A stretch of 64,000 nucleotides of DNA from a virus. The notes under the pieces were generated by a model, which saw nothing but the letters and a program-made list of their open reading frames with translations, was not told the DNA's origin and did not search any database. Position 1 is the stretch's first letter. Each line of letters opens with the position of its first letter. Both the position numbers and the translations under genes were made by a program. Of the stretch, positions 31,966 through 57,128 are shown piece after piece. The stretch covers positions 1 through 64,000 of IMG/VR virus record IMGVR_UViG_3300005528_000046; one strand, given 5' to 3'.

Positions 31966-33630
31966 TTAAAGAGTGTTTAATCCGTGTACGTATACTTTAC
32001 CGTAGAATTCTGGACGAACTACTTTCTTCGCGTAACGTGTCATAACACCTTTACGTGGAGTAAAGTTAACTGGATCATATACAAGCGGAGTCATAATCAA
32101 TGGAATATATGGAGAGAATACAGCACCTGTTTCAAGGAATTGCGAACCTCTGAAGCCCATTAAGATTACATTTTCTAACATGTATGGATTTTTATAAACC
32201 GTGTAGCGATTATTAATTGAACCAATTTTTTGTACACCTGCTGCAAATTCCATCTTTGTTCCATCAGTATCAGCAGCAAATCCAGGAATTGATTCAAGGA
32301 TAGTTGCAACCGCAGGAGATGTTACTAGGAAGTTAGCACCACCACGCAATGTTTTTTGGTGAATCTTATTTGATACTTTTTGCAGTTTAGTACCGAGAGT
32401 TTGGAACCAACCACCTTGTGTATTGTAATATCCATCACCAACCGCGGTTGCAGCGCCAGCACCTGATTGTGTAAATCCAGATCCGTTCCAGAAATTATTA
32501 TTTAATGCTGACCAATACTCAGTTGTCGGAGCTGCGGCAATCAACATATCGAGAATTTCGAGATCAATTTCCATTGATACATACTCAGAAAGCATTGAAG
32601 TCAATTCAGCTTCAGCATCAATTGAGTGGTACGCATTAAGATCTTGAGCAAATTCAGGAGTCCATACTGCTTTCAACTTACGAGTCTTAGCAACGATTGG
32701 CTCTGATTGCATTTCAAGATTGATTTCCGGAATATCAATATCTGTACCAACATTAATACCAGATTGACCGGATCCTTTGAAAGGATTTTTATCTTCAAAA
32801 TCTCCTCTAGTAATGTCAGTAGGTTGAATACTATAATTGATCTTTGGATTTGCAGATGCACTAACTAATGTAGCTAATGAAGAAGATTGTGCAGTAGTTA
32901 CGATAAACGATGCAGTATAGTTACTATCAATTTTAGAAAATGCCTGTACAGGAATCAATTCAGTGTTTCCAGAACCTGATAATAATGTAAATGAACGAAC
33001 TGCATATAAATCAGCATTAGTAGGAATAGGCATTGTAACTAAAGCGTATTGACTTGGCAAGAATGCACTATCAAAATTAAGAGATGCTGATGTAGCAGCT
33101 CCAATTGTAAATGATGCAAAACCTACAGATCCAGTTACGTTATTAATTGAATAACCAAAACGACCTGCACCATAAAGACCGCCAGCTGCATCAGAACCGG
33201 TAGTAGTAACACCAAACATGGAATCTAATGCATTAGGATTACCAAATGGATCACCTGTACGAAGATTATTATCATCATCAAATCCAGGCTGAGCTGTACC
33301 ATACTTAAAATCTAGATAGAAGATAAGTCCTGATGGCAAGTTCATTGGCTGAACTGAAACGAATTCTTTTGCAGCAAATTCAGCAAAAATTCTTCTTACC
33401 AAAGGAAGTGCAACACCTGCCCATTCTTCTGATCCAGCCGTTGTCCCTGTAGAAGTTGCTTCTTTTACTAATTGACGTGCTTGGTTTTCAAGCAATTGGG
33501 CCATACCTGCTCTTTCGGTTTCACCCTTAAGACCTTCCAATAGTCCGGTCTTTTCCCATTTTGCTGATAACGCTTTTGCTTGATTTCTTTGTACAAAATC
33601 GTTAGTTTGCAATAAATTTGAAATACTCAT
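31966..33630 (-). CDS. 23: Major capsid protein gp23
   Basis: A 554-residue major capsid protein (T4 gp23 is 521). The conserved gp23 segments are VSVQPMNLPSGLIFYLDFKY (about 90-110), KLKAVWTPEFAQDLNAYHSI with DAEAELTSMLSEYVSMEIDL (about 310-350), NFLVTSPAVATILES and the end YAKKVVRPEFYGKVYVHGLN. The N-terminal about 57 residues are a helical propeptide-like region. VKE57 followed by A58 is a plausible prohead protease site, matching T4 gp23 cleavage after E65. It shares a transcript with the scaffold gene 27 bases upstream and ends with a strong terminator. AAAAGGAAA precedes the ATG. Confidence 0.95.
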   Translation of the reverse strand: MSISNLLQTNDFVQRNQAKALSAKWEKTGLLEGLKGETERAGMAQLLENQARQLVKEATSTGTTAGSEEWAGVALPLVRRIFAEFAAKEFVSVQPMNLPSGLIFYLDFKYGTAQPGFDDDNNLRTGDPFGNPNALDSMFGVTTTGSDAAGGLYGAGRFGYSINNVTGSVGFASFTIGAATSASLNFDSAFLPSQYALVTMPIPTNADLYAVRSFTLLSGSGNTELIPVQAFSKIDSNYTASFIVTTAQSSSLATLVSASANPKINYSIQPTDITRGDFEDKNPFKGSGQSGINVGTDIDIPEINLEMQSEPIVAKTRKLKAVWTPEFAQDLNAYHSIDAEAELTSMLSEYVSMEIDLEILDMLIAAAPTTEYWSALNNNFWNGSGFTQSGAGAATAVGDGYYNTQGGWFQTLGTKLQKVSNKIHQKTLRGGANFLVTSPAVATILESIPGFAADTDGTKMEFAAGVQKIGSINNRYTVYKNPYMLENVILMGFRGSQFLETGAVFSPYIPLIMTPLVYDPVNFTPRKGVMTRYAKKVVRPEFYGKVYVHGLNTL

Positions 33631-36069: not shown

Positions 36070-36696
36070 TTATATCCTACATTTTCCATCTTCACAGAGT
36101 ATAGATGTAATTGCATCATGTACTCTTGCGTATTTATTTGTCGTTGTTTTATTTACTGATTCATTCATTCGTGTTGGTCGCATAAAAGCTCCATGTGTCG
36201 ATGGATTTGATACAAAGTCCCAACAAATTAATTCAAAATCTTCTTGTACTTCTACAGTGCCTTCATTACGTAGTTCTTTTACAGATCCCAAACCACGTGA
36301 TGATATTCCCAAAGTAATTCCTGCACGAAATAATTCTTTAAGGATTTTTCCCGAAGGTGTATCTAATACTTGAACCGTTCCAAGTAAATCATCACCATTC
36401 CACCATATTTTTAAAACGTTATGTGATACATTGTTCAAGTTAACTACAGATGATTCTGGATGATCTAACTCGCCTAATGCTCTATGCTGATCAATATATT
36501 CACGCTGATAACGTTGACATTCTCTTTGCAATATATGTTTAGGATATACTCGTCCGTTTTGGTTTTTAGCTCCTGCTCTTTGTAAAACTCCTTGCACTAC
36601 AAAACCACCCGGTATTCCATATGCAGAACCATTTGATTCCGTTAAAGAACCAACAGGTCGAAATGGCATATATTCTACTATAAGTTGTTTTGACAT
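36070..36696 (-). CDS. 21: Prohead core protease gp21
   Basis: A 208-residue serine protease (T4 gp21 is 212). The catalytic histidine is H79 in ALGELDHPES, and the serine lies in GISSRGLGSV (S132 or S133). The segments NQNGRVYPKHIL and ILKELFRAGITLG are typical of this fold. It is cleaved free and digests scaffold, core and capsid N-termini during maturation. It follows the 236-residue gene by one base, with AGGGGAATAAT as ribosome-binding site. The family call is strong; which serine acts is inferred from family spacing. Confidence 0.9.
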   Translation of the reverse strand: MSKQLIVEYMPFRPVGSLTESNGSAYGIPGGFVVQGVLQRAGAKNQNGRVYPKHILQRECQRYQREYIDQHRALGELDHPESSVVNLNNVSHNVLKIWWNGDDLLGTVQVLDTPSGKILKELFRAGITLGISSRGLGSVKELRNEGTVEVQEDFELICWDFVSNPSTHGAFMRPTRMNESVNKTTTNKYARVHDAITSILCEDGKCRI

Positions 36697-38298: not shown

Positions 38299-40131
38299 TT
38301 ATAAAATATTGTTTTCATCTAGCATTGTGCCTGCGTCTAAATCTGTTTCTGTAGATTTCTTAAATGTTTCTGTAATAATACTTACTCCAGATTTACCTGA
38401 CTTCATACCTTTTACAATGCTTTCTGTACGCGTTACTGATAATTTTGATTTGAAATTTGGATCAGGTTGATACGTTGTTTTTCTTTGTTCTGGATTAAAA
38501 GTTTGCCTAACTTGTTTTGTCCCTGTAGGATCCCATCCAAACTCATTACGATGCTGTCCTGATTTTATTCCTTCAGGTGGACGACCTCCTTGATCTTTTT
38601 CTTCAACTTCTTTGCTTGACATATGTACCGTTGCTAAATCGTGTGGTGTTCCAAATGATACTCCCGTTACAGCAGGGTCATTACCTTCTTGTTCAATTTG
38701 ATTTTGACGGAATCTAAGTTTAAGATCTTCTAAGACATCATTGCGTTCTTGCAACCATTGATCTTCGGACATATTGAATATAAACTCATAAATGTATCGA
38801 TCTGAAACTAATTTGCTATCTTTCATTGCGTTTGCTAATGTAATTTTTTCATTCATTAACGCAACTTTTTGTTGGTCATAAATAATAGAAGGAGCTGTTA
38901 ATTCTAACTCAAATCCAACTAAATCTTCTCCTTCAAAGCCTTGTGCATATAAATGTACAATAGCAACTTTTACTAATTCTGATACTACAATTTTTTGTAT
39001 GCGTTCAATAGTTCTAGCAAATCGAATATCAATTGATGCTAAGTTAACTTTGCCTTCTTGTGACTCACCATAACCTAAAAATGGTTTAGGAATTTTAAGA
39101 GCGGCCATCATTTTATCTTTGATATATTCAATATCATCCATACCCGTAAAAGTCATTCCGGGCAATGTATCAATTGTAGTAGATGATTGACCTCCACGAA
39201 CTGGTAAGTAATAATCTTCCATCATGTTATTAAGATTAAATCTTAAATTGTAATTTCCAGTTTGTGGATCAATATGTGGAATTTTTTTCATCTTATTGAT
39301 AATTTGTTCCATGAAAGTATCAACTTCATTAGGAGGAATATTACCAATATCAATTTTAAAAATACGTTTTTCCGGAGCTCTCATGATACGATGTATTAAC
39401 ATTGCATCTTCCATCATCATTAATTTTTGAAATTCTTTACGAGCTCCTTCTAACATGGATCTACCGTACGGTAAAAAGTTAGAATCGGATAACATACGGA
39501 AATGTGCAATCTCAAATGTATCATATGTCATTTGTTCTGCAGCAACATTTTTAAATTTTATTTCATATTCGCCAGTAGCCTGATTATATTCTTCCCATCG
39601 CTCCATTTCATAACTAGAAAAAGGACGTGCATTGATAATTCCTATTTCTTCAGCAATATCTAATTTTAAAAAGAAATCACCATATTTGGTCATGTTTCGA
39701 ATCCATGTCCACAGATTAAATTCTACATTTAAAACATCATAAAATAAATTGTATAGAATTTTTTGTATGCGAGTGTTGTTAGTTTTAATAGTAAGTATTT
39801 CTCCAAACTGATCTGCTAATGTAGATTCATCTGAATAAATATCTAATGCCGCAGATATAATTGGATCTTTATCCATCATTTCATAATCAGCATAAAGCTG
39901 CATACGATTTTGATGCATATAATAGTTAGAATCATATCCACCCATACCTCCTACACGATGTTTATTAGCACCATGCAGACGCATATATCGGTCCGCGACT
40001 TTGCTTTGAGCTAAATTTCCAACACCTTGTAAACGATTGGTATCTACTACTCGTAGTTTGTCTTTTCCATACGCACGTACAACTACGTTAGTACTAAAAA
40101 GATTTTGTAAACGTTTTCTTAATGACGCCAT
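38299..40131 (-). CDS. 20: Portal protein gp20
   Basis: A 610-residue portal protein (T4 gp20 is 524). The N-terminal half has YADYEMMDKDPIISAALDIY, SDESTLADQFGEILTI and the clip/wing region VNLASIDIRFARTIERIQKI. The segment MRAPEKRIFKIDIGNIPPNE, then VRGGQSSTTIDTLPG, is highly characteristic of T4-type portals. The extra length is in a polar C-terminal tail (about 495-610) with EEKDQGGRPPEGIKS. Twelve copies form the DNA entry ring and bind terminase, scaffold and neck. A TATTTATA box lies 13 bases upstream. Confidence 0.95.
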   Translation of the reverse strand: MASLRKRLQNLFSTNVVVRAYGKDKLRVVDTNRLQGVGNLAQSKVADRYMRLHGANKHRVGGMGGYDSNYYMHQNRMQLYADYEMMDKDPIISAALDIYSDESTLADQFGEILTIKTNNTRIQKILYNLFYDVLNVEFNLWTWIRNMTKYGDFFLKLDIAEEIGIINARPFSSYEMERWEEYNQATGEYEIKFKNVAAEQMTYDTFEIAHFRMLSDSNFLPYGRSMLEGARKEFQKLMMMEDAMLIHRIMRAPEKRIFKIDIGNIPPNEVDTFMEQIINKMKKIPHIDPQTGNYNLRFNLNNMMEDYYLPVRGGQSSTTIDTLPGMTFTGMDDIEYIKDKMMAALKIPKPFLGYGESQEGKVNLASIDIRFARTIERIQKIVVSELVKVAIVHLYAQGFEGEDLVGFELELTAPSIIYDQQKVALMNEKITLANAMKDSKLVSDRYIYEFIFNMSEDQWLQERNDVLEDLKLRFRQNQIEQEGNDPAVTGVSFGTPHDLATVHMSSKEVEEKDQGGRPPEGIKSGQHRNEFGWDPTGTKQVRQTFNPEQRKTTYQPDPNFKSKLSVTRTESIVKGMKSGKSGVSIITETFKKSTETDLDAGTMLDENNIL

Positions 40132-40179: not shown

Positions 40180-41760
40180 TTAACGTATCAACCAAGTTAA
40201 ATCTTGATCTCCGTCACCTGGATTCCAATTCCATCCGTTGTTTTGTTGAGTATTTTTGCCGGTATATATAACTTCACTTGTTTTTGTAAACTGAGATAAA
40301 GCACGTTTATTTAAATCAATTCCTTGTTGACGAAGTTTTAAAGCGGTATCACGTAACCAAAGTGTAATAGCAAATGACATTACAAGGTCGTCATTATATC
40401 CTTGTTGTGCCTGTGCTTTGCCGTTCAACCAAACAAATACTAGTAATTCTTGTATAAGACGTTTACTTCGTATTACGGGAGTTCGTTCTCGCATATACAT
40501 TTCTAATGCTGATATCATTAATGGGCGTGTTCTACTAGTAGTTGATACTCCAGGAACCATTTGGCTCTTATCTTTCATATCATAGCCTTTTTTCAATTGA
40601 ACCGATGCATCTGTATATCCGTCATCTTTATATGTATAATGTAGATTTTGATAACCTCGATCTAATGCCGGTTGAATTGCAGCCCAACCAATATTAGCAT
40701 TTTCAATTGCTAGTAAAGCATTATTCCATTCTGTTGCAACCGTTACAAGCATATTACCAAAATCATTTGGTGCAATTTTACCTTTATATTCTGCAACTTG
40801 TCGTACTGATTCAACATCAAATATTTGAAATGTAGAATAATCTCCCCCATCACCTCGTGCAACGTCAGCTACTACTGTGTAATCTTTTGCGTAGTCTGGA
40901 TATTCCCATATCCAATAATTTCCATCAAATCCGCGTCTTTCAATCGGATCTTCTGTTTTAATGTCATATTCAAGCAACAATGGACCATCTACTACAGTAT
41001 GACCAGAACTGACGAAGTCACAATCGCATTCTTGTGCCGCACCTCGTTCCCCTAATAATTGTGTTTGTTCATCACGCCAGGCCTGGTCTCGTTCTGGATG
41101 TACGGTCCAATGCAATTTAATTGTATGAAATCCATTTATTCCAGCTTCCGCATCTGCCCATGTTTGATGAAACCAATTACCAACACCATTTGGAGTTGAT
41201 AATACAATTGCACCACCACCCGTTGATAGTGTTGCTTGTGATGCTATCCATATTTCTTCAATATTACGTATAAATGCTGCCTCATCCACAATTAGCAGTG
41301 ATAATGCTTCTGAACGTGCACCGGTGGTTGCAGATGATACTGCTTTGATTTGTGAACCATTTTTAAATTTAAGTGATAATTTATTGTCAGCTTCAACTGT
41401 TCCTTTTAACCAACTTGGTAAATTATCGTGCATTACACGTACTTTAGTAACTAAGTTTTTTGCTACTTCTTGTGTTGTTGCAATAACAAGTACGTTAAAA
41501 TCTTCTGCAAACAACATGCTCCATAGAGCAAATCCTGCTGAAAGAGTTGATATACCCAACTGACGAGACTTGAGAATAACATTGTATCTATTATCTCGTA
41601 GTTCTGTTAATGAATCTTCTTGAAATGGAAATAGATTAAATTTAATTTTACCACGTTTAGGATGTTGAATGTAACAATAGTTACGCATAAAAAATACAGG
41701 ATCTTTAGCACATTGCATGTACTGTTGCTGTATTATTTGCTTTATGTTCGGCTGAGACAT
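40180..41760 (-). CDS. 17: Terminase large subunit gp17
   Basis: A 526-residue packaging motor (T4 gp17 is 610). The ATPase has Walker A KSRQLGIST (64-72), in which the usual lysine before S/T is Ile, so K64 is the likely displaced lysine; Walker B is LLIVDEAAF with D159-E160; and there is coupling motif LSTPNG. The RNase H-like nuclease starts at YTVVADVARGDGGDYSTF (D299). It cuts concatemers and pumps DNA through the portal. The shorter length is mostly at the N-terminus, before residue 40. It starts three bases after the stop of the small membrane protein gene. I do not see a small terminase gene nearby. Confidence 0.95.
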   Translation of the reverse strand: MSQPNIKQIIQQQYMQCAKDPVFFMRNYCYIQHPKRGKIKFNLFPFQEDSLTELRDNRYNVILKSRQLGISTLSAGFALWSMLFAEDFNVLVIATTQEVAKNLVTKVRVMHDNLPSWLKGTVEADNKLSLKFKNGSQIKAVSSATTGARSEALSLLIVDEAAFIRNIEEIWIASQATLSTGGGAIVLSTPNGVGNWFHQTWADAEAGINGFHTIKLHWTVHPERDQAWRDEQTQLLGERGAAQECDCDFVSSGHTVVDGPLLLEYDIKTEDPIERRGFDGNYWIWEYPDYAKDYTVVADVARGDGGDYSTFQIFDVESVRQVAEYKGKIAPNDFGNMLVTVATEWNNALLAIENANIGWAAIQPALDRGYQNLHYTYKDDGYTDASVQLKKGYDMKDKSQMVPGVSTTSRTRPLMISALEMYMRERTPVIRSKRLIQELLVFVWLNGKAQAQQGYNDDLVMSFAITLWLRDTALKLRQQGIDLNKRALSQFTKTSEVIYTGKNTQQNNGWNWNPGDGDQDLTWLIR

Positions 41761-44015: not shown

Positions 44016-44024
44016 AATAAATAT
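44016..44024 (-). promoter_or_regulatory. Near-copy of TATTTATA box
   Basis: TGATATTTATT. The TGA is the stop of the nucleotidyltransferase-ligase gene. The box lies 20 bases before the start at 43995. Confidence 0.4.
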
Positions 44025-46516
44025 CATCGAGCGTACTTTAATACTCCTAAAATCTGATTTACCGGTGCGAATGCGCCTGTCATCTTATATGTATTACCTC
44101 GATATGTAAATACTATGCCTTCTGTTGGTACAATTGCATCAAATCCTCCTAATTTTTGAATTCTTTTAAGTTCTAATTCCAATTTTGCAAGTGTTGCTGG
44201 ATTTGGCGATATTTGCAATTCTTTAATAAGTTGTGCTAAATCTGTTTTAATATCTTGCACTGTTTTTGATGGATTTGCTGCTAAAAAGTTTGTAGCATTT
44301 TGTAATACTAAAACACCTAATCGTAAAAATATAGATTCAAATGGTTCTAAATTTTGTTTGCGATATTTTTTAAAATCTGATTTATCAAATTCAGTTACCC
44401 AAGCTTGGAATGCATCATTATCAATTTGTTTTTTAAGCATTGCAATGTTTACGGATTTATCTTCAAATGCCCAACGATATATCAATGTAGTTAATACTGA
44501 ATCTGGTATATCATATCCTAATTCTGTAGCTTTTGTTTGTATTACATCACGCCACCACGCTTTATGGTAATCACTTAATAAATCTGTATCTTTTAAACTA
44601 AATTTATCTCGTAACTGATCAATTTCATTATAAAATGCAGCTTGTTGATCTTCAAAATCATAAACCTGACCTAATTTAATTTGCTGTGGAGGAATAAATG
44701 AAAACGTTTTTTGCATATGTGCATTAGCATCTTGTATAATGTTTTGCATTAATGCACCACCTGTTAAATCCGTTTCAACAGTATTTCCTCGTTCATCATA
44801 TTCTACAAGATTATGAAATTGCAAATGTGCTTTATCATATGCAATAACATTTTTAGTTGCTGGATAAATTATTTCCATGTTAGCAAATACTCGACCATTT
44901 TTAAATATTTGTTGCAATTTATCTGCAGGTATTTTATTTAAAGCTTCGGTTAAGTCTTCAGCACATGCACGATATGCATCTACTATTAATTTATATCCTT
45001 CAGCAGCTTCTATACCATTTTTATCGACAGATTCTTGATACTTTCTTTCAAAATCTGCAATTAATTGATCCGGGGTCATTGGATTAATGATAGTACCTTT
45101 ATTACGAGCAAATCCGGGCTGACCATCTTTCCAAGTAACTTGTATGTTTTGTCCATCTGTTTTCTCAGTTACAGCTTGTTCTATATCTAAACGTCCAGAT
45201 AATGCTCTAGATACAATTTCACGTACATCATTAAATGTTAATCCGTGATCATCCCATGGATGTGCCATATGACCTGCAGCACCTCCTTCTGTTAATACGC
45301 CTCCCGTTTTTAAACGAGATTCGATGGTATAAATAATATCTTCTGGATTATTTGATTGCCAACGTTTGCGTTGCTTTTTAATTGTTCTAGGAATCAATTC
45401 AATCATTTTTTTGCGAGGATTCCATTGTAACATGAACGGCATATGAATTGGAATATCAAATTGATAATCAGATCCAACACCGGTAGGTCGTTCTAAATTC
45501 AATTGTCTTGCAATTTTATCGCCATATTCATTAGCTAAGTCTTCAAAAAAGTCTCGTAACTCATCCGTATAGATCGGAGCTTCGTTTCTGGGATCATTCA
45601 ATCTATCAATGAAATGTGTAAACTTGCCTTGAAAATCTACATCGATTCCATATTCTTTAAAAAATCCATCAACTGCAGATTCAATAGCTGATAATTCTTG
45701 ACGTGTAATGTAGTTTTCTGTTATGATACTTTCTACTAGTTTTGCACCATATACAGTTTTGTTAAATGTATCAAAATCATATACAAAATCCTCACCTCGA
45801 TGGTTATCTAAGAATGCACGTAATTTTTTAATTTTATCTGCATGACGTTTCTTTTCACGCGGAAACATCATTGATTCTGCAACTTCTTCTACATCTTCCT
45901 GCAGTTGTTTTGTCCACCAATTTTTAGTAAATACAGCTTCCTGTACACCTGTTAATATTTGCCATGCATTTTTAACTTTAGCATCATCGTATTGTGGATA
46001 CGCAGTCCTAAACGCAGCATAATCTCCGGTAGCAATAGCATTACGAACATTAGTAGCTGATATAGGTTCATCATTACTTGTTAATGGATCTACATTGATG
46101 TTTAATTCTACAGCATCAACACCGCGCGGTATAGTTCGACCTTTTTTATCTCCTATAGTAGCATATTTATCTACATTTGGAATAAAATCTTTTGCTCGAA
46201 CATAATCATCCCCTTTTGCAGATGCAGCCATTGCATAACGACCGGTAGCATCTTCCGGCAATGCAAATAAATATTCATACGCAGCCATGATAGGAGAATT
46301 AAATTCGGTTGGTTGTATTTCAATTTGTGGATTGTCATTTAATAAATCAAACATTTCCATAGTTTTTTCACGCGTAATTCCATCACGTTCTTTAGGACCA
46401 ATTAGTAATATAACTCGATTAACATCTGGATGCTGTGCATATCGATTTGCTAAATCTAAATGTGCCCCTGTTATAGGTTTAAATCCTCCTGGAAAAAGTA
46501 CTGTTGTTTCGTTCAT
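44024..46516 (-). CDS. Nucleotidyltransferase fused to polynucleotide ligase
   Basis: An 830-residue two-enzyme protein. Residues 1-200 are a HxGH-type nucleotidyltransferase (FPGGFKPITGAHLDLANRY, with T16-G-A-H19 in place of the HxGH, and ISATNVR near 155), the fold of NMN adenylyl- and cytidylyltransferases. The C-terminal half has the covalent ligase signature: EKTDGQNIQ with K452 (KxDG motif I), FANMEIIYP (motif III-like), EGIVFTYRG (motif IV) and YKMTGAF (motif V). So it probably joins RNA or DNA ends through an enzyme-AMP step. The substrate of each half is unknown. It lies between structural genes, with TATTTATA boxes at both ends. Confidence 0.75.
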   Translation of the reverse strand: MNETTVLFPGGFKPITGAHLDLANRYAQHPDVNRVILLIGPKERDGITREKTMEMFDLLNDNPQIEIQPTEFNSPIMAAYEYLFALPEDATGRYAMAASAKGDDYVRAKDFIPNVDKYATIGDKKGRTIPRGVDAVELNINVDPLTSNDEPISATNVRNAIATGDYAAFRTAYPQYDDAKVKNAWQILTGVQEAVFTKNWWTKQLQEDVEEVAESMMFPREKKRHADKIKKLRAFLDNHRGEDFVYDFDTFNKTVYGAKLVESIITENYITRQELSAIESAVDGFFKEYGIDVDFQGKFTHFIDRLNDPRNEAPIYTDELRDFFEDLANEYGDKIARQLNLERPTGVGSDYQFDIPIHMPFMLQWNPRKKMIELIPRTIKKQRKRWQSNNPEDIIYTIESRLKTGGVLTEGGAAGHMAHPWDDHGLTFNDVREIVSRALSGRLDIEQAVTEKTDGQNIQVTWKDGQPGFARNKGTIINPMTPDQLIADFERKYQESVDKNGIEAAEGYKLIVDAYRACAEDLTEALNKIPADKLQQIFKNGRVFANMEIIYPATKNVIAYDKAHLQFHNLVEYDERGNTVETDLTGGALMQNIIQDANAHMQKTFSFIPPQQIKLGQVYDFEDQQAAFYNEIDQLRDKFSLKDTDLLSDYHKAWWRDVIQTKATELGYDIPDSVLTTLIYRWAFEDKSVNIAMLKKQIDNDAFQAWVTEFDKSDFKKYRKQNLEPFESIFLRLGVLVLQNATNFLAANPSKTVQDIKTDLAQLIKELQISPNPATLAKLELELKRIQKLGGFDAIVPTEGIVFTYRGNTYKMTGAFAPVNQILGVLKYAR

Positions 46517-49255: not shown

Positions 49256-49264
49256 TATAAATAT
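49256..49264 (-). promoter_or_regulatory. TATTTATA box
   Basis: TGATATTTATATTTAAAAG. The TGA is the stop of the SbcD-SbcC gene. The box lies 19 bases before the structural gene ATG at 49236. Confidence 0.5.
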
Positions 49265-52200
49265 CAGTTATGGGAGATTTGGCTGAATCCGTTTATTTTG
49301 TTTACTTCAATTAAGTTGTCTACCATATCACGCATTGTATCTACGTGAGATATGATAATTGAAAAATCAAATTTAGTTCTAAAATAATCAAATAGATTTA
49401 CTACTGCAGAAATATGTTCTGCATCTAATGAACCCCATCCTTCATCAATTGCAATGAAATTTGGACGTGGTAATGCTGATACATTGATAAGTGCAATCCG
49501 AATTGCTAAAGATGAAATAAATCGTTCCATACCGCTTGTTAATTCTAATGGCCAAAAATTATCTTCATCATATATAATATATCCGTTAATATTTTTACCA
49601 TCACTTTGAAGAACCATGTTAAAATCAACAACTTGATTTAATACGTTATTGATTTCAGTTTCTATTTTAGGCATAGCTTTTGAAATTAATTCATACGGTA
49701 CGCCATCTCGTTTAACGGATTCTAAATAATATTCATATGCTTTGTATTCTGTTTCTAATTTTCGATATGAATCTAGTTGTGATATTGCAGTAGATTTATT
49801 AGTTTTAGCAACTTCAATAGCCCCATGTTTTTTACGAATTGCTTCTGTAATTTCTTTGATTAATGTAGTGCACGATTCTATTTTTTCTTTGCATTCTAAA
49901 ATTTCAGCATCAACCGTTTTGTTATGTTTAATTGCAGATTCATTTGAACGAAATGATTCTTGTCGTTCTAAACATGTTTCTAATTCGGATTCTCGTGTTT
50001 GCAATTCACTTTCTAGTAATTCTAATTGCAATTCTTTTACTTTTAAAGTATTCAATGAGTCCGTAATAGTTGTTTTTATTTGATTTAACTCATTGTATTG
50101 AGTTTCATATGTTTTTAATTCAGCATATTGCGTTTGATTAATTTCATATCGTTGCATCAATTCTTCTAATACTTTTCTATCTTGATCAATTGTATGTTGC
50201 GCCGACATTGCATCTTGTACAAAAACGTTAGATGTACAGTATTTACATTGTGGGTCATATTCATGTGATTCAAGATGCTTAATTTTTTCTTCTTTGGCAT
50301 CAATCAATCCTGTTTGTGTTTTAATTGCATCACGTAATTCTGTAAATTCTGTTTGAAGTTTTTGTAATGTTTCTACGTGTTGCAACAACTGTGTTTCATT
50401 GTAATTGTTTCGTATGTTTTGTTTTGCTTGTGATATATTTGTTTTTATGAGTTGTATGCCAGCAGATGCTGTATCAATATCTGATAGCAACGTTTCAATT
50501 TGTTTTGTTAAATCAGTTTCTTGTGTTTCTAACGCAGCAATATCCGGACCTTCATATGTTGTTGGAAGTTTTGTTTCAATTAAAGAAACAATTGTATTTT
50601 GTAATGCGTTTCGCTGTTCTTGAAAATCATCTTCCTGTGTTTCTAAATCTCGAATACTGTCTTGATTGTTAGTTATAACGGCATCGGCTTGTATAATAAT
50701 TTCAGCAAAATCTGTTTTCTTATATTCTTTAAGTTTACCAGCTGTTTCTTTGATTTCTTCATTTGCTAGTTGATACAATTGTTCAAACACCGTAATATCT
50801 AAAAATTGTGAAAGCAAATCTTTACGTTCTCTCTGAGACTTTTCTATAAAATTATTGTTATCTGCTTGAAGTGAAAATGCAGTTAAAATAAAATCATCAT
50901 ATGTACCTAAATAACGACGTATTGATTTATTTGTATCACTTCGTTCTTCACCATTTAAATTTTCTGTGTCTGTATAAAAGTCTACTAATACTTTAACATG
51001 TCCGTTTTTTTGTTTGATTCCCGTACGTTCAATTGTATACGTTGTACCATTCATTTCAAATGTAAACTTGCCTCGAAACGTAGATTTTTTGTTATTTAAA
51101 ACTTCATTAGCTTTTCCAGTTTTACTACATTTATCAAAAATAGTATATGTTATTGCATCTAATAATGAAGATTTACCTGATGTATTTGCAGCAAATAGGC
51201 CGCATACATCTTTCATATTTTCAAAATTAATCACGTTGCCTTCACCATATGAAAACATGTTATCAAATTCAAATTGAATAGGATGCCAAGTCATGTGACG
51301 TACTGATTCTACTGCCGGTAGTTTTGAATTTATTGTGCGATTAATATAACGAATTGCATCTGTTTCTTCCGAAGTAGCTTGTGGAAAATTTACTGCAATA
51401 TAATCTGTTATCAATGTATTTTGATATTCAACGTCTCGTACATTACCAATAGTAAATGATGATGTTGTTTCAGTTGCAGACATTGCAGAACTACGTTGAA
51501 TTGTAATATCCTGAACATCATACTTTTTACGTATCGTTGCAATTAGCTTTTTCATGTCAGCCGCTGAAGTACCGTTAAATTTAATTCTAACGCGAGGTTT
51601 TTCTGGCATTCGATGTGGTGCTTTAACAACGGTAGTTCCTTCTACTTCAAGTGTTACATAACCATAATCATTTTGTATTTCTACAAATTTTGCCTCTCTA
51701 CATGGAAGATCCCAAACTAAAATTCCATGGTCTAATGCTTCGCCATGATTTTGTTGTATCAATGAACCAGGATATGCAATTGTGCCAGCATCATTTAAAA
51801 ACTGTGCCGGTTTGTGTATGTCTCCTAGCAATGTTATGTCATGTCCTTCAAACAAATCAACGCCAACATGTTCATTAGATATCTGATATCCTATATCCGT
51901 TTTAGCAGAATTTACAGCTCCATGATGCAATGCTATTTTATATGCTGCTTGAAACTGATCTGCTTTAATATATTCACTTGGCGGAACATCAACTGCCATG
52001 TGATTGAATACAATACCAGCACATTCAAACAATCCGTTATCTTTAATGAAATGAATGTTTGGATTTTTAATAACATTGATAATAGGACTAATTGCATCGA
52101 TTCTATGCATATTGTTTAGATTCATGTCATGATTTCCTAGTATTACTATGGTAGGAATCATAAATCCATCAAAAAACTCAACAAGCATTTCAATTAGTTC

Positions 52201-52407
52201 CGGAGACATATCTAGTTTGCTATGAACAATATCTCCCGTAACTACTGCAATACTGGATCTTGTACTGTTACATGCAATATGATCAAATAAATTTTGAAAC
52301 ACTTCGCGATATTCTTTATGACGTTTTAAAGTACGTATATGTACATCGGATATATGAAATATCTTATCTATATAATCTAAACCTAGATCTAGTTGTTTTA
52401 TATCCAT
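49264..52407 (-). CDS. Fused SbcD-SbcC (gp47-gp46 type) recombination nuclease
   Basis: A 1047-residue single chain of two classic partners. Residues 1-365 are a calcineurin-like phosphoesterase of Mre11/SbcD type: HISDVHIR (D21, H23), VTGDIVHSK (D59), LGNHD (91-94), LHHGA and LLGDIHKP. From about 371 the chain is Rad50/SbcC-like: Walker A GLFAANTSGKSS (K412, first Gly position occupied by Ala), a long coiled coil with zinc hook CKYC near residue 720, signature LTSGMERFISSLA and Walker B IAIDEGWGSLDAEH. The complex cuts and resects DNA ends for recombination. T4 encodes these as genes 47 and 46. It overlaps the primase gene by 10 bases. Confidence 0.9.
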   Translation of the reverse strand: MDIKQLDLGLDYIDKIFHISDVHIRTLKRHKEYREVFQNLFDHIACNSTRSSIAVVTGDIVHSKLDMSPELIEMLVEFFDGFMIPTIVILGNHDMNLNNMHRIDAISPIINVIKNPNIHFIKDNGLFECAGIVFNHMAVDVPPSEYIKADQFQAAYKIALHHGAVNSAKTDIGYQISNEHVGVDLFEGHDITLLGDIHKPAQFLNDAGTIAYPGSLIQQNHGEALDHGILVWDLPCREAKFVEIQNDYGYVTLEVEGTTVVKAPHRMPEKPRVRIKFNGTSAADMKKLIATIRKKYDVQDITIQRSSAMSATETTSSFTIGNVRDVEYQNTLITDYIAVNFPQATSEETDAIRYINRTINSKLPAVESVRHMTWHPIQFEFDNMFSYGEGNVINFENMKDVCGLFAANTSGKSSLLDAITYTIFDKCSKTGKANEVLNNKKSTFRGKFTFEMNGTTYTIERTGIKQKNGHVKVLVDFYTDTENLNGEERSDTNKSIRRYLGTYDDFILTAFSLQADNNNFIEKSQRERKDLLSQFLDITVFEQLYQLANEEIKETAGKLKEYKKTDFAEIIIQADAVITNNQDSIRDLETQEDDFQEQRNALQNTIVSLIETKLPTTYEGPDIAALETQETDLTKQIETLLSDIDTASAGIQLIKTNISQAKQNIRNNYNETQLLQHVETLQKLQTEFTELRDAIKTQTGLIDAKEEKIKHLESHEYDPQCKYCTSNVFVQDAMSAQHTIDQDRKVLEELMQRYEINQTQYAELKTYETQYNELNQIKTTITDSLNTLKVKELQLELLESELQTRESELETCLERQESFRSNESAIKHNKTVDAEILECKEKIESCTTLIKEITEAIRKKHGAIEVAKTNKSTAISQLDSYRKLETEYKAYEYYLESVKRDGVPYELISKAMPKIETEINNVLNQVVDFNMVLQSDGKNINGYIIYDEDNFWPLELTSGMERFISSLAIRIALINVSALPRPNFIAIDEGWGSLDAEHISAVVNLFDYFRTKFDFSIIISHVDTMRDMVDNLIEVNKINGFSQISHN

Positions 52408-53342
52408 AACATTCCCATTTTGAGTTGCATTAACCGTTCAAACGTTAATACATCAGTATCTTGTATAATATTGTTAATTTGTTGAAATCCTAATTCTGAT
52501 GCATCAGCATCTTGCAATTCTATAAAATATACATTAAGACCTTCAGCCATAAATCGTTCAGCAATTTGAATGGCATTCTTAAGTGCATCAGCATCTAGAC
52601 AAATATAAATGTCTCGTACGCGTTGTTCAATAATTTTTTTCTGAAGTGTGGATTGAATTATTTTACCAAACAAAGGAATTGCATTACGTTTAATTGCAAT
52701 TGCATCAAAAGCTCCTTCGCAAAGAATGATTGGCTGTGACCAATTAACGAAAAGATCAAAACCAATTATGTCTTTTGAAATTTTTGGATTTTTATGTTTT
52801 TGTGTATCTGATTTATAAAATGCTCTACTTACAAAATAATTTAATTGACCGTTACAATCATAACTAGGAATAATTATTTTTCCAGAATATTCTCCGGTTT
52901 CACAATATCCAATTCTATATTTAATGATATCAAATATAGTTACTCCTCTATTTTTAAGATAATGTATTGCATTTCTATAGTCCGGAGTAGTTTTAGGTAA
53001 CCATAATGGTTTATAATCTTTTGGAAGTTGTATTGTTTCTGTTTTAACATCAGCATCTTTAGTAACACGATATCGAGTTGATTCAATGATACGTCCTAGT
53101 TGTTCAAACTTTTCTTTAGGAAGATTTAGTTGTTTAAATAAACTAGAAATAGTACGACCTTTACGATCACTAATCCAACAATGCCATACATTTTCTCCTT
53201 GAGAATTTGTATTGATGTTTATTTCTAATTTAGGTTTGTAATGTGAAACAAATGGTGAGAAAAATGCTACGTTATCTCCAGAAGTAGTTTTACCTTTACC
53301 AAGTACTGATTCTAATAACTGAAGTAACTTAATATGTTTCAT
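52398..53342 (-). CDS. DnaG-type primase (gp61-like) with degenerate zinc finger
   Basis: A 314-residue primase-like protein. The TOPRIM core has IILCEGAFDAIAIK (E199) and YICLDADALK (D240 and D242), preceded by the primase core RIGYCETGEYSGKIIIPSYD. The N-terminus has the shape of a zinc-binding domain (FFSPFVSHYKPKLEI then VWHCWISDRKGRTI), but the expected CxxC...CxxC positions hold S, V, C and S, so it probably cannot bind zinc. It should make RNA primers, perhaps with altered start-site choice. It resembles T4 gp61 in size (342), and no helicase gene lies next to it here. Confidence 0.75.
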   Translation of the reverse strand: MKHIKLLQLLESVLGKGKTTSGDNVAFFSPFVSHYKPKLEININTNSQGENVWHCWISDRKGRTISSLFKQLNLPKEKFEQLGRIIESTRYRVTKDADVKTETIQLPKDYKPLWLPKTTPDYRNAIHYLKNRGVTIFDIIKYRIGYCETGEYSGKIIIPSYDCNGQLNYFVSRAFYKSDTQKHKNPKISKDIIGFDLFVNWSQPIILCEGAFDAIAIKRNAIPLFGKIIQSTLQKKIIEQRVRDIYICLDADALKNAIQIAERFMAEGLNVYFIELQDADASELGFQQINNIIQDTDVLTFERLMQLKMGMLWI

Positions 53343-55014: not shown

Positions 55015-56574
55015 CTATTGAATTTTTTGATTTTTATGTTTTATAATCCACTGATGTGTATCTTGTGTAATCTGATCACGATCTACTTTATTTATATCTA
55101 TATCACGATTTCCAGATTTATATGCAACAATTACATTAATTAATTCTATTAATTCTTGCATATCGTTATCCCATTTGCCGGATGGTGTTTGATTGATAAA
55201 TTTATCTATAGGATAGTCTTGTTTTCTAGATTCAAAAAATTCTAAATTTGTTGTGAACATTTCGATCATATCTACTTGTAAACTTCGTATAACATTAGTA
55301 TCACTATCTTCATAAACCGGACCATCATATGATTTATAATCAACTTGTATTCCGTTTACATATTTATTTTTTGGTTTATTATTTTCATCCCATAAAATTC
55401 CGTTAAATGGTTTATTATTTTTAAAATAACCTTCAAAATATTCGTCAGCTAATACTCGATTTAATTTTCCTTGTGATAATTGTCCATTTCGAATAATACC
55501 TGTAAATTGATGTGTTGGTAATCCATCTGGTGTTTCTTGTCGATTACCAGTTTTTATATCTAATTGTAATGGTAAATTATTTGCATTTCCATTATTTAAA
55601 TCTATAATATTTATAGCATAATATCCAATCTGATCAGATCCATATTTAAATTTTGAACGTTCATTTGTAGACTTAAATGACCCATCATATATAATAATCG
55701 TCGTCGGATCTGTAAGTATTAATTTACCATCTAACGGTATATTATTTTTAGTATCAAAATTTCCATAAAATTGAATTTTAGATATAGTTCGACTCCATAT
55801 ATTTTTTGATAATTGGACTGTTAATGGATCTGATTCTGATACCAATATTGTATCTGGAATTTTTAATAATTCCTCTGGAGTTTGTAAATCAGCTGTTGAT
55901 ATTTTTTTATTAATTGTTTTTAATTGTACTAACCACTCATATGCTTTTTTATATCTCGTTGCATCTATAAAAGTTTTATCGATAATTGATGTAACTGGTT
56001 TTAAATTAATCAAATCTATAATTCTATTGGCTGATAGATGTGGAGTATTATTAGCTAATGGTAAAGCACCGCTAGATACAGTAACTTCTGGATATATCGA
56101 TTGAATTCCACCACTAGGTAATCCTAATGCAACATTGTATTGTCCAGATTTACTTTTAGTTACACTAGATTTATATATCCACATTAATTCTTCAATATAA
56201 TTTTTAGGTAATATCCAATAATTATATAAATAATTTTTTTTTGAATCACGTTGATCTGCAGAACGAATGAATAAATAATTACCGTTTAAAAAACGTTGCA
56301 ATGTTTGATTTTGATTGATTCGTTGAGCAATTGCCTTTTCTACACTTTGTTTACTAGCTAGTTCTCCATTTCTTCTTTTAGCAATTGCTTTTAATTGAAA
56401 TCCAGCTACAGCGCCTGCATCTTGAGCTTCTGCTATATCAGCTGATCGCAATCCGGTTTTAATAATTACCGTAATAACTTGCGTACTTGTTTTTGGTACA
56501 GCAGCTGTTGGTTGCAGATTTGATTGCTCTAATAATAATTTTCGTATAATTTGTTCTATCATGATGCGTTTCAT
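55015..56574 (-). CDS. Unknown protein with MORN-like segments
   Basis: A 519-residue protein. The first ATG at 56574 (MKRIMIEQIIRKLLLEQSNL) or the second at 56562 (MIEQIIRKLLLEQ) may be used. The N-terminus is amphipathic and contains L-L-E. Residues about 265-400 have YDGSF and FEGYFKNNKPFNGILWDENN units with Y/F-x-G spacing, reminiscent of MORN repeats but few in number. No catalytic residues are obvious. It sits between the kinase-like and peptidase genes with a near-copy of the TATTTATA box just upstream. Function unknown; the leader and neighbours suggest a virion-internal protein. Confidence 0.6.
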   Translation of the reverse strand: MKRIMIEQIIRKLLLEQSNLQPTAAVPKTSTQVITVIIKTGLRSADIAEAQDAGAVAGFQLKAIAKRRNGELASKQSVEKAIAQRINQNQTLQRFLNGNYLFIRSADQRDSKKNYLYNYWILPKNYIEELMWIYKSSVTKSKSGQYNVALGLPSGGIQSIYPEVTVSSGALPLANNTPHLSANRIIDLINLKPVTSIIDKTFIDATRYKKAYEWLVQLKTINKKISTADLQTPEELLKIPDTILVSESDPLTVQLSKNIWSRTISKIQFYGNFDTKNNIPLDGKLILTDPTTIIIYDGSFKSTNERSKFKYGSDQIGYYAINIIDLNNGNANNLPLQLDIKTGNRQETPDGLPTHQFTGIIRNGQLSQGKLNRVLADEYFEGYFKNNKPFNGILWDENNKPKNKYVNGIQVDYKSYDGPVYEDSDTNVIRSLQVDMIEMFTTNLEFFESRKQDYPIDKFINQTPSGKWDNDMQELIELINVIVAYKSGNRDIDINKVDRDQITQDTHQWIIKHKNQKIQ

Positions 56575-56591: not shown

Positions 56592-57128
56592 TTACCAATC
56601 AACCATTACCAAATTTCCGTTCCAACTCATTACATTATCAGATCGAAAATCTAAATCTAAATCAAATTCTGGTATATCTAATTTTTCAATGTCTGTTTTT
56701 AGAGCATTTAAAAAATTATCAACCACCAGATCAATTGTATCTGTTTCAGCAACAAAATCAAATATTGAAACTTCACCACCATTTTCTCTAGCAAATACAG
56801 CATAATCTTGCATAAAATTATCAATGCTTGTTTTGATACGTGTGGATAATTCTGAAGCATTTGCCATAATATACATGTTTTTACCGTCAACATAATATAC
56901 CGGAATAAACGTTGTGAACATGTCACTGCGATTAACTATGCGTTTAGCAACTTCATATTCATCACGTTCTTTAGTAATTTTAAAAACTTTATCTTCACCG
57001 TCGATTTCATATACACGACCATTATCACCCGCACCGATTAATCGAAATGCATTGTTTTGTATTTTTTTCAAACAACGTTGAATATCAGAATCTGATATCT
57101 CTCGTAGTATTTGTTTTAATCGTATCAT
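56592..57128 (-). CDS. Minimal protein kinase-like protein
   Basis: A 178-residue protein with the marks of a kinase catalytic core: Gly-rich loop IGAGDNGRVY (32-40), ATP-lysine K50 in KVFKIT, a catalytic-loop-like DFRSDN with D160 and N165 (the spacing of HRDLxxxN, although the His position is D158), and VMVDW with D177 as the metal-binding Asp. The chain ends one residue later, so the activation segment and C-terminal helices are missing. It may be a very small kinase or a pseudo-kinase. It begins MIRLKQILREISDSD, a leader with L-R-E. It overlaps the preceding gene by four bases (ATGA). Confidence 0.7.
   Translation of the reverse strand: MIRLKQILREISDSDIQRCLKKIQNNAFRLIGAGDNGRVYEIDGEDKVFKITKERDEYEVAKRIVNRSDMFTTFIPVYYVDGKNMYIMANASELSTRIKTSIDNFMQDYAVFARENGGEVSIFDFVAETDTIDLVVDNFLNALKTDIEKLDIPEFDLDLDFRSDNVMSWNGNLVMVDW

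Follow-up and report, generated by a model that had tools for sequence, protein, structure and literature searches.

Why should a T4-like virus keep a nucleotidyltransferase and a ligase in a single polypeptide encoded among its head genes, and do the two work as one enzyme? The question is raised by an intact ORF of 830 aa, with an ATG start, on the minus strand of the 64,000-nucleotide stretch of DNA analyzed here, called the window below, which carries T4-like head genes and belongs to a virus record of 93 kb. The ORF lies between a tail-fibre-like gene and a cluster of terminase, portal, gp21 and major-head genes, following the former and preceding the latter at its terminase end, and the preliminary description had rightly placed it in the structural region.

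44024–46516, minus strand: the whole ORF (830 aa), composed of a HIGH nucleotidyltransferase, a linker, a middle (m) domain, a second linker and a ligase
40180–41760: terminase
38299–40131: portal
36070–36696, minus strand: prohead protease of the gp21 type, predicted to process the chain (Peptidase_S77, E 2.2e-32; 33% identity to T4 gp21)
31966–33630, minus strand: gp23-type major head protein (Pfam Gp23, E 1.6e-73)

The terminase is found downstream of the fusion gene in the window, in Microcystis phage Mel-JY01 and in those contigs that have enough flanking sequence. The gp23-type protein has a candidate site, GLLE32/G (the slash marks the candidate cut), near its N-terminus, as matched by a regular expression only. 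Sequence libraries are nearly blind to the ORF: Pfam gave CTP_transf_like under its cut-off, PHROGs gave only short and weak pieces, and a PADLOC search gave no match. Our literature search found no earlier description of a nucleotidyltransferase-RNA ligase fusion, no papers on Mel-JY01 and no virion proteomics for this phage group, which agrees with the preliminary description, to which the fusion was not known as a described system.

The first part of the chain is a HIGH-type nucleotidyltransferase.

45947–46516, minus strand: HIGH-type nucleotidyltransferase domain, aa 1 to ~190 (Pfam and fold match)
46460–46471, minus strand: T16-G-A-H19, an HxGH-type motif in the PPAT-like TxGH form (T16, G17, A18 and H19 invariant in 25 relatives)
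46043–46063, minus strand: I152-SATNVR158, an ISSTxxR-type motif (S153, A154 and R158 invariant in 25 relatives)

The CTP_transf_like match of the window domain (E 0.0032) is under the cut-off, which several relatives exceed, and a structure search with the full-length AF2 model retrieved NadD and PPAT at a probability of 1.0. The HxGH-type motif (TGAH, aa 16–19) and the ISSTxxR-type motif (ISATNVR, aa 152–158), on which the domain had been recognized from the sequence alone, are both present in a HIGH fold, and the domain belongs to this class of enzymes.

The second part was less accessible. Of the domain searches suggested for the two halves, those by structure returned both folds and those by sequence returned CTP_transf_like for the first half, but the window's ligase half had no match among the Pfam, PHROGs or NCBIfam families. 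Only chance matches came from comparing its sequence profile with solved structures, so that a fold search was needed.

44027–45286, minus strand: RNA-ligase-like covalent nucleotidyltransferase domain, aa 411–830 (fold matches 8uce, 9do4/2c5u (Rnl1), 8rbj and 2hvr (Rnl2))
45146–45163, minus strand: motif I, K452-TDGQN457, with the predicted adenylate-accepting lysine (K, D and G 100%, N 97% conserved)
44873–44881, minus strand: motif III, N546-M-E548 (E 100%, N 94% conserved)
44147–44761, minus strand: helical insert of ~200 aa, aa 586–790, between motifs IIIa and IV (AF2 secondary structure)
44108–44122, minus strand: motif IV, E799-GIVF (E799, G800, V802 and F803 100% conserved)
44075–44089, minus strand: motif V-like Y810-K811-MTG with a single lysine (K811, T813 and G814 100% conserved)

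RNA ligases were retrieved with the full-length AF2 model at a probability of ~0.85, and with the ligase half alone Foldseek ranks 1–12 were exclusively RNA, tRNA and DNA ligases, though at weak E-values of 0.002–0.45, the structures retrieved including an archaeal RNA ligase, T4 Rnl1, a fungal tRNA ligase and Rnl2. An hhalign comparison with T4 Rnl2 was weak overall (probability 0.5%) and aligned motif I, at which two distant relatives also reach Pfam RNA_ligase, under its cut-off. Among 36 non-redundant ligase sequences (<85% identity), K452, D454, G455, R471, E548, E799, G800 and K811 are 100% conserved; KxDG of motif I, the glutamate of motif III and EGxV of motif IV place the domain in the ligase superfamily, and K452, EGIVF (799–803) and YKMTG (810–814), earlier taken as the marks of a C-terminal KxDG ligase, lie at the stated places and are not chance occurrences. 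The two-lysine motif V (KxK) is not present in the 36 sequences, which have YKxTG with one invariant lysine. AF2 confidence is high for much of the helical insert, the chain stops 16–20 residues past motif V, and the model lacks a family-specific C-terminal domain such as those that follow motif V in Rnl1, Rnl2 and Rnl3. The insert, the short tail and the single motif V lysine set this half apart as an undescribed RNA-ligase family.

It might be asked whether this half joins DNA, for instance nicks arising from packaging or ejection, and not RNA. The gene adjoins the terminase, one structure match is labelled as a DNA ligase (3qwu), and the kinase partners described below would suit DNA ends too; but an OB-fold domain, which follows motif V in ATP-dependent DNA ligases, is excluded because no residues are left for it, the structure matches are mostly RNA and tRNA ligases, and KxDGxN aligns with motif I of Rnl2. 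We regard DNA joining as very improbable; of the roles considered for the second half, RNA repair has the best support.

The fusion is not peculiar to the window, and the observation that both domains share one chain extends to many viral contigs, in which the catalytic residues are invariant: close relatives are encoded in 125 viral contigs, and a scan with the distant Mel-JY01 relative matched 304 stretches; a scan with L003, a jumbo-phage protein, yielded no relatives. In a first group, the freshwater-type contigs (L006–L085), a nucleotidyltransferase, a linker, an optional m domain and the ligase follow one another, with extra modules in some. In a second (L086–L165), which we call marine from likeness and not from a record, the same C-terminal ligase is joined to another HIGH subfamily (GRFQPFGPHH…SGTxMR), often with a P-loop kinase in front. 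The ISATNVR of the window can be aligned with the SGTxxR of the marine type, and the profiles of the two types show little that is alignable beyond this ISATxxR/SGTxxR block, indicating that one slot holds two nucleotidyltransferase subfamilies. A third type (HRGH) stands behind a ParB-like domain in L003, the order is reversed to ligase and then nucleotidyltransferase in L249, and in L002 (LR756500) the gene immediately after a free-standing ligase gene ends in a HIGH nucleotidyltransferase domain, so that separate versions side by side, which had been suggested as something to look for in related phages, do occur. With three nucleotidyltransferase types, both orders, a stand-alone ligase, an optional m domain and a kinase, the modules have evidently been shuffled.

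The same contigs offered two candidates that we rejected and several side observations. The split ORFs of L064 are not a separate gene pair: the frame-shifted tail of the first reads GGAAGHM out of frame, and the split is therefore a deletion or an assembly error. Matches in "bacterial" MAGs do not point to a cellular family, since terminase and portal neighbours identify L250 and L251 as phage contigs. In L060 (1675–4626) an SGNH-hydrolase-like module (GDSIATG..., aa ~212–380) was recognized by eye between DIIQE/D and AMTE/G and had no Pfam match, and in L160 (2483–6091) a Zn_protease module (PF05618, E 7.9e-7) occupies aa 424–546 within the nucleotidyltransferase-ligase chain. Another fusion in the window is a 1047-aa ORF (49264–52407, minus strand) that joins a metallophosphoesterase (SbcD/gp47-like, 15–200) to an SbcC/gp46-like ATPase (382–1046); in T4, gp46 and gp47 are products of two genes.

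The wider family also bears on the proposal that the first domain makes NAD from NMN. The part of it that stands is one of likeness, the archaeal NMN adenylyltransferase being the closest family to the marine versions and NadD/PPAT the nearest folds to the window domain; but the scores are all under the curated cut-offs (window against TIGR00482, 17.5 of the 112 bits needed; marine type against archaeal NMNAT, 26.4 of 181), and no family member exceeds an NMN adenylyltransferase cut-off. NMN is a possible substrate, judging from these sequence similarities. Namat of NARP1, considered as a similar HIGH enzyme, was dropped as being Nampt-like.

If the modules are exchangeable, the joints between them deserve attention. 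T4 gp21 cleaves after L/I-X-E (PMC9026906), and this pattern occurs at the following places in the window protein.

45896–45931, minus strand: FTKNWWTKQLQE207/D, a recurring linker motif and candidate cleavage or targeting element
45716–45724, minus strand: I265-T-E267/N268, candidate gp21 site before the m domain ([IL]xE/N in 19/20 contexts)
45347–45715, minus strand: optional middle (m) domain, aa 268–390 (absent in relatives of ~683 aa)
45287–45295, minus strand: L408-T-E410/G411, candidate gp21 site where the ligase domain begins (residues 392–417 of low confidence)

The linkers are predicted to be disordered, with AF2 segments 192–222, 239–267 and 392–417 under pLDDT 50; E207, E267 and E410 all fall inside these segments, one of which ends at residue 267 itself, and E524, another [LI]xE match, offers a natural contrast inside a helix. 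The motif stands right before the ligase domain, with the consensus [LI]xE/GG, in 33 of 37 independent contexts (<50% identical to each other), against a mean of 1.6% and a maximum of 13.5% at other linker offsets, and while the linker sequences there differ almost wholly, their last three residues stay [LI]xE. The 20 contexts counted before the m domain are related sequences. Across 714,480 aa of ORFs, the linker motif F[ST]xxWWxxx[LI] occurred 73 times within the family and a single time outside it, in a split relative; it follows the freshwater-type nucleotidyltransferase and precedes other [LI]xE sites in the marine group. With candidate sites at 267 and 410 in joints modelled as disordered, and gp21 encoded in the window, the chain qualifies as a predicted gp21 substrate, although a motif as short as [LI]xE calls for caution, and some other reason may lie behind the GG that follows. 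The joint glutamate is missing in L121, L130, L163, L250 and L253 (LLLMGG) and in L068 and L084 (LLVCGG). In L069 (6001–9195) and L084 (6001–9285), an insert at the LTE/GG joint changes E to C; it has zinc-finger-like CELCG and HNH-like HLDHKYSIF...NLEILPS stretches by eye, only weak DUF7487 and ROS_MUCR matches in Pfam, and, from its sequence, looks like a homing-endonuclease-type invasion.

These joints bear on two other explanations. According to the first, which resembles the coupling of active sites suggested in the preliminary description, the protein is a permanent two-headed enzyme whose cofactor product, NAD for example, feeds the attached ligase for RNA repair in the infected cell, without packaging or cleavage. 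The pair stays in one chain in most relatives even though nucleotidyltransferases of different subfamilies fill the slot, a constancy that points to a shared pathway, and the window protein has no leader (see below). A lasting coupled enzyme is nevertheless not favoured and seems rather unlikely to us, because the joints are disordered, the full-length AF2 model has a pTM of only 0.42, the modules are swapped, reordered (L249) or free (L002), protease-type sites are conserved at the joint, and the gene is located among late structural genes. According to the second, the protein is packaged and injected uncut as a polyvalent protein, with [LI]xE/GG kept for the ligase fold or as a flexible hinge. 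Large multidomain phage proteins, some of them uncut, are described as injected with DNA (PMC5512222), and the joint glutamate is absent in a few family members as listed above; however, residues 404–415 are disordered in the AF2 model, and the stand-alone ligase of L002, which begins MKFLKSYEEFLNENLILE/GG, has the same [LI]xE immediately after its leader. We consider the uncut form unlikely.

The N-termini of the relatives recall internal head proteins. Leaders of 10–19 residues target proteins to the head (PMC9026906), and T4 IPIII and IPII begin MKTYQEFIAE/A. Full-length chains of the second group begin MNKLTKWLVESILTE/A, MKKLTEWLVKPFLKE/D and similar, and [LI]xE occurs at residues 8–26 in 16/17 distinct marine full-length starts versus 27/188 other ORFs at the same loci, although many of the 17 starts are related and the independent leader events are therefore fewer than this ratio suggests. 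In L252, three adjacent genes, for a 2H phosphoesterase, a 182-aa protein and a window-type nucleotidyltransferase-ligase, have alike leaders, that of the 182-aa protein (1875–2420), between the other two, being MKFQSFKNWLNE/E. The m domain also exists by itself, in marine phage proteins whose leaders have the form MKTF...[LI]xE, for example MKTFNQYLLSE/Q, and MK[TS][FY] starts 25/42 of these proteins versus 14/449 other ORFs. In the window protein itself, an N-terminal leader with a gp21 site at its end is absent; the chain begins MNETTVLFPGG, directly with the nucleotidyltransferase domain, and this is the main weakness of reading it as capsid cargo.

Beyond the fusion, the m-domain proteins of L167–L246 represent a widespread phage domain, with 593 matching stretches in viral contigs and T4-IP-like leaders, and are possibly, from these starts, a capsid cargo family of their own. 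Four other window proteins have short leaders of this kind: those at 879–1379 (MMKKNILAE/N) and 1408–1728 (MMKKLKDLLAE/N), a primase at 52398–53342 (leader-like MKHIKLLQLLE/S) and a protein at 55015–56574 on the minus strand (MKRIMIEQIIRKLLLE/Q). They may be further head cargo, and in the primase the likeness may be due to chance. A 178-aa protein (56592–57128, minus strand) has a leader-like start followed by a protein-kinase-like glycine loop (GAGDNGRVYEIDGEDKVFKIT) and no Pfam match.

The two folds, the conserved catalytic residues, the module shuffling, the joint [LI]xE, the leaders of relatives and gp21 in the window are computed features, from which we infer packaging, cleavage and injection, and RNA and NMN as substrates. 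The chain would be a modular polyprotein packed into the prohead of a T4-like phage, where gp21 would cut the disordered joints behind [LI]xE, at E410/G411 and likely also at E267/N268 and E207/D208; the corresponding cut in Mel-JY01 WWT39297.1 would give a fragment with the start GGLGGHMNHPFDD. The freed HIGH adenylyl/cytidylyl-transferase, the small m domain and the RNA-ligase-like enzyme would enter the host along with the DNA, whereupon the ligase, taking AMP on its K452, would seal RNA that host defence RNases have cut, tRNA being the most likely target, and the nucleotidyltransferase would produce a nucleotide cofactor, which might be NAD made from NMN. We give this capsid-delivered, gp21-matured polyprotein with an RNA ligase for RNA repair an even chance of being correct. 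The P-loop kinase of the marine chains and the 2H phosphoesterase near the L252 chain are fitting company, a kinase and a 2H phosphoesterase being the usual end-healing partners in phage RNA repair (PMC7824862, PMC9503650), although the L252 2H protein need not mean RNA repair because it also matches Acb1, an anti-CBASS enzyme.

More broadly, and more tentatively, with a chance somewhat short of even, T4-like phages of freshwater and the sea might deliver an RNA-repair and cofactor kit in the capsid, encoded as a single polyprotein, with the prohead protease separating the enzymes at its own short sites, between any two of which modules could be added or exchanged, and the ligase forming a new family with a helical insert. 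If this is true, the prohead protease would serve not only capsid maturation but also the maturation of a packaged enzyme set, and RNA repair could begin at infection, before early-gene expression. A name would be given to a large RNA ligase family, so far without annotation, that abundant aquatic phages carry, and [LI]xE at module joints together with an N-terminal leader would provide a sequence rule for finding other injected cargo.

Among known systems, T4 IPI, IPII, IPIII and Alt, with their gp21-cut capsid targeting sequences, are matched here in three ways: short N-terminal [LI]xE leaders occur in the relatives, the window encodes a gp21, and the gene sits among late and head genes. The differences are that the site type recurs here at internal joints between several enzymes of one chain, that a leader is absent from the N-terminus of the window protein, and that a nucleotidyltransferase and an RNA ligase make up the cargo. 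Polyvalent proteins (PMC5512222) are likewise large, multidomain phage proteins with unrelated enzymes combined in them and presumed injection into the host, and chains in the present family also hold several unrelated enzymatic domains (kinase, nucleotidyltransferase, ligase and further inserts). Polyvalent proteins are often proposed to be cut by their own zincin peptidase, whereas the predicted cutter here is the prohead protease; a zincin-like metallopeptidase domain, frequent though not universal in those proteins, had no Pfam match in the window protein. Their 2H domains are reported never to have been seen associated with RNA ligases (PMC5512222), in contrast to L252, where the 2H gene is two genes from the ligase chain.

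As for the individual modules, Rnl1, Rnl2, Rnl3 and fungal Trl1 share motifs I, III and IV, one motif V lysine and the Foldseek fold with the ligase, which differs in its helical insert of ~200 aa between IIIa and IV, in having almost nothing past motif V and in the single lysine there. NadR pairs an NMN adenylyltransferase-type domain with a P-loop kinase. NadM, NadR, NadD and PPAT share the HIGH fold and the HxGH-type and ISSTxxR-type motifs, the marine versions being nearest to archaeal NMNAT, but all matches are far under the cut-offs, the motif variants here are TGAH and GPHH, and the partner is a ligase, not Nudix or NR kinase. The same fusion is found in Mel-JY01 WWT39297.1 (639 aa, "cytidylyltransferase like protein"), with 36% identity over the ligase half and, as in the window, a gene upstream of the large terminase; unlike the window protein, it has a GRFQP-type nucleotidyltransferase and no m domain, and its ligase half is unannotated. 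Set against T4 internal proteins and polyvalent proteins, what is new here is probably an undescribed RNA-ligase family carried in shuffled capsid cargo.
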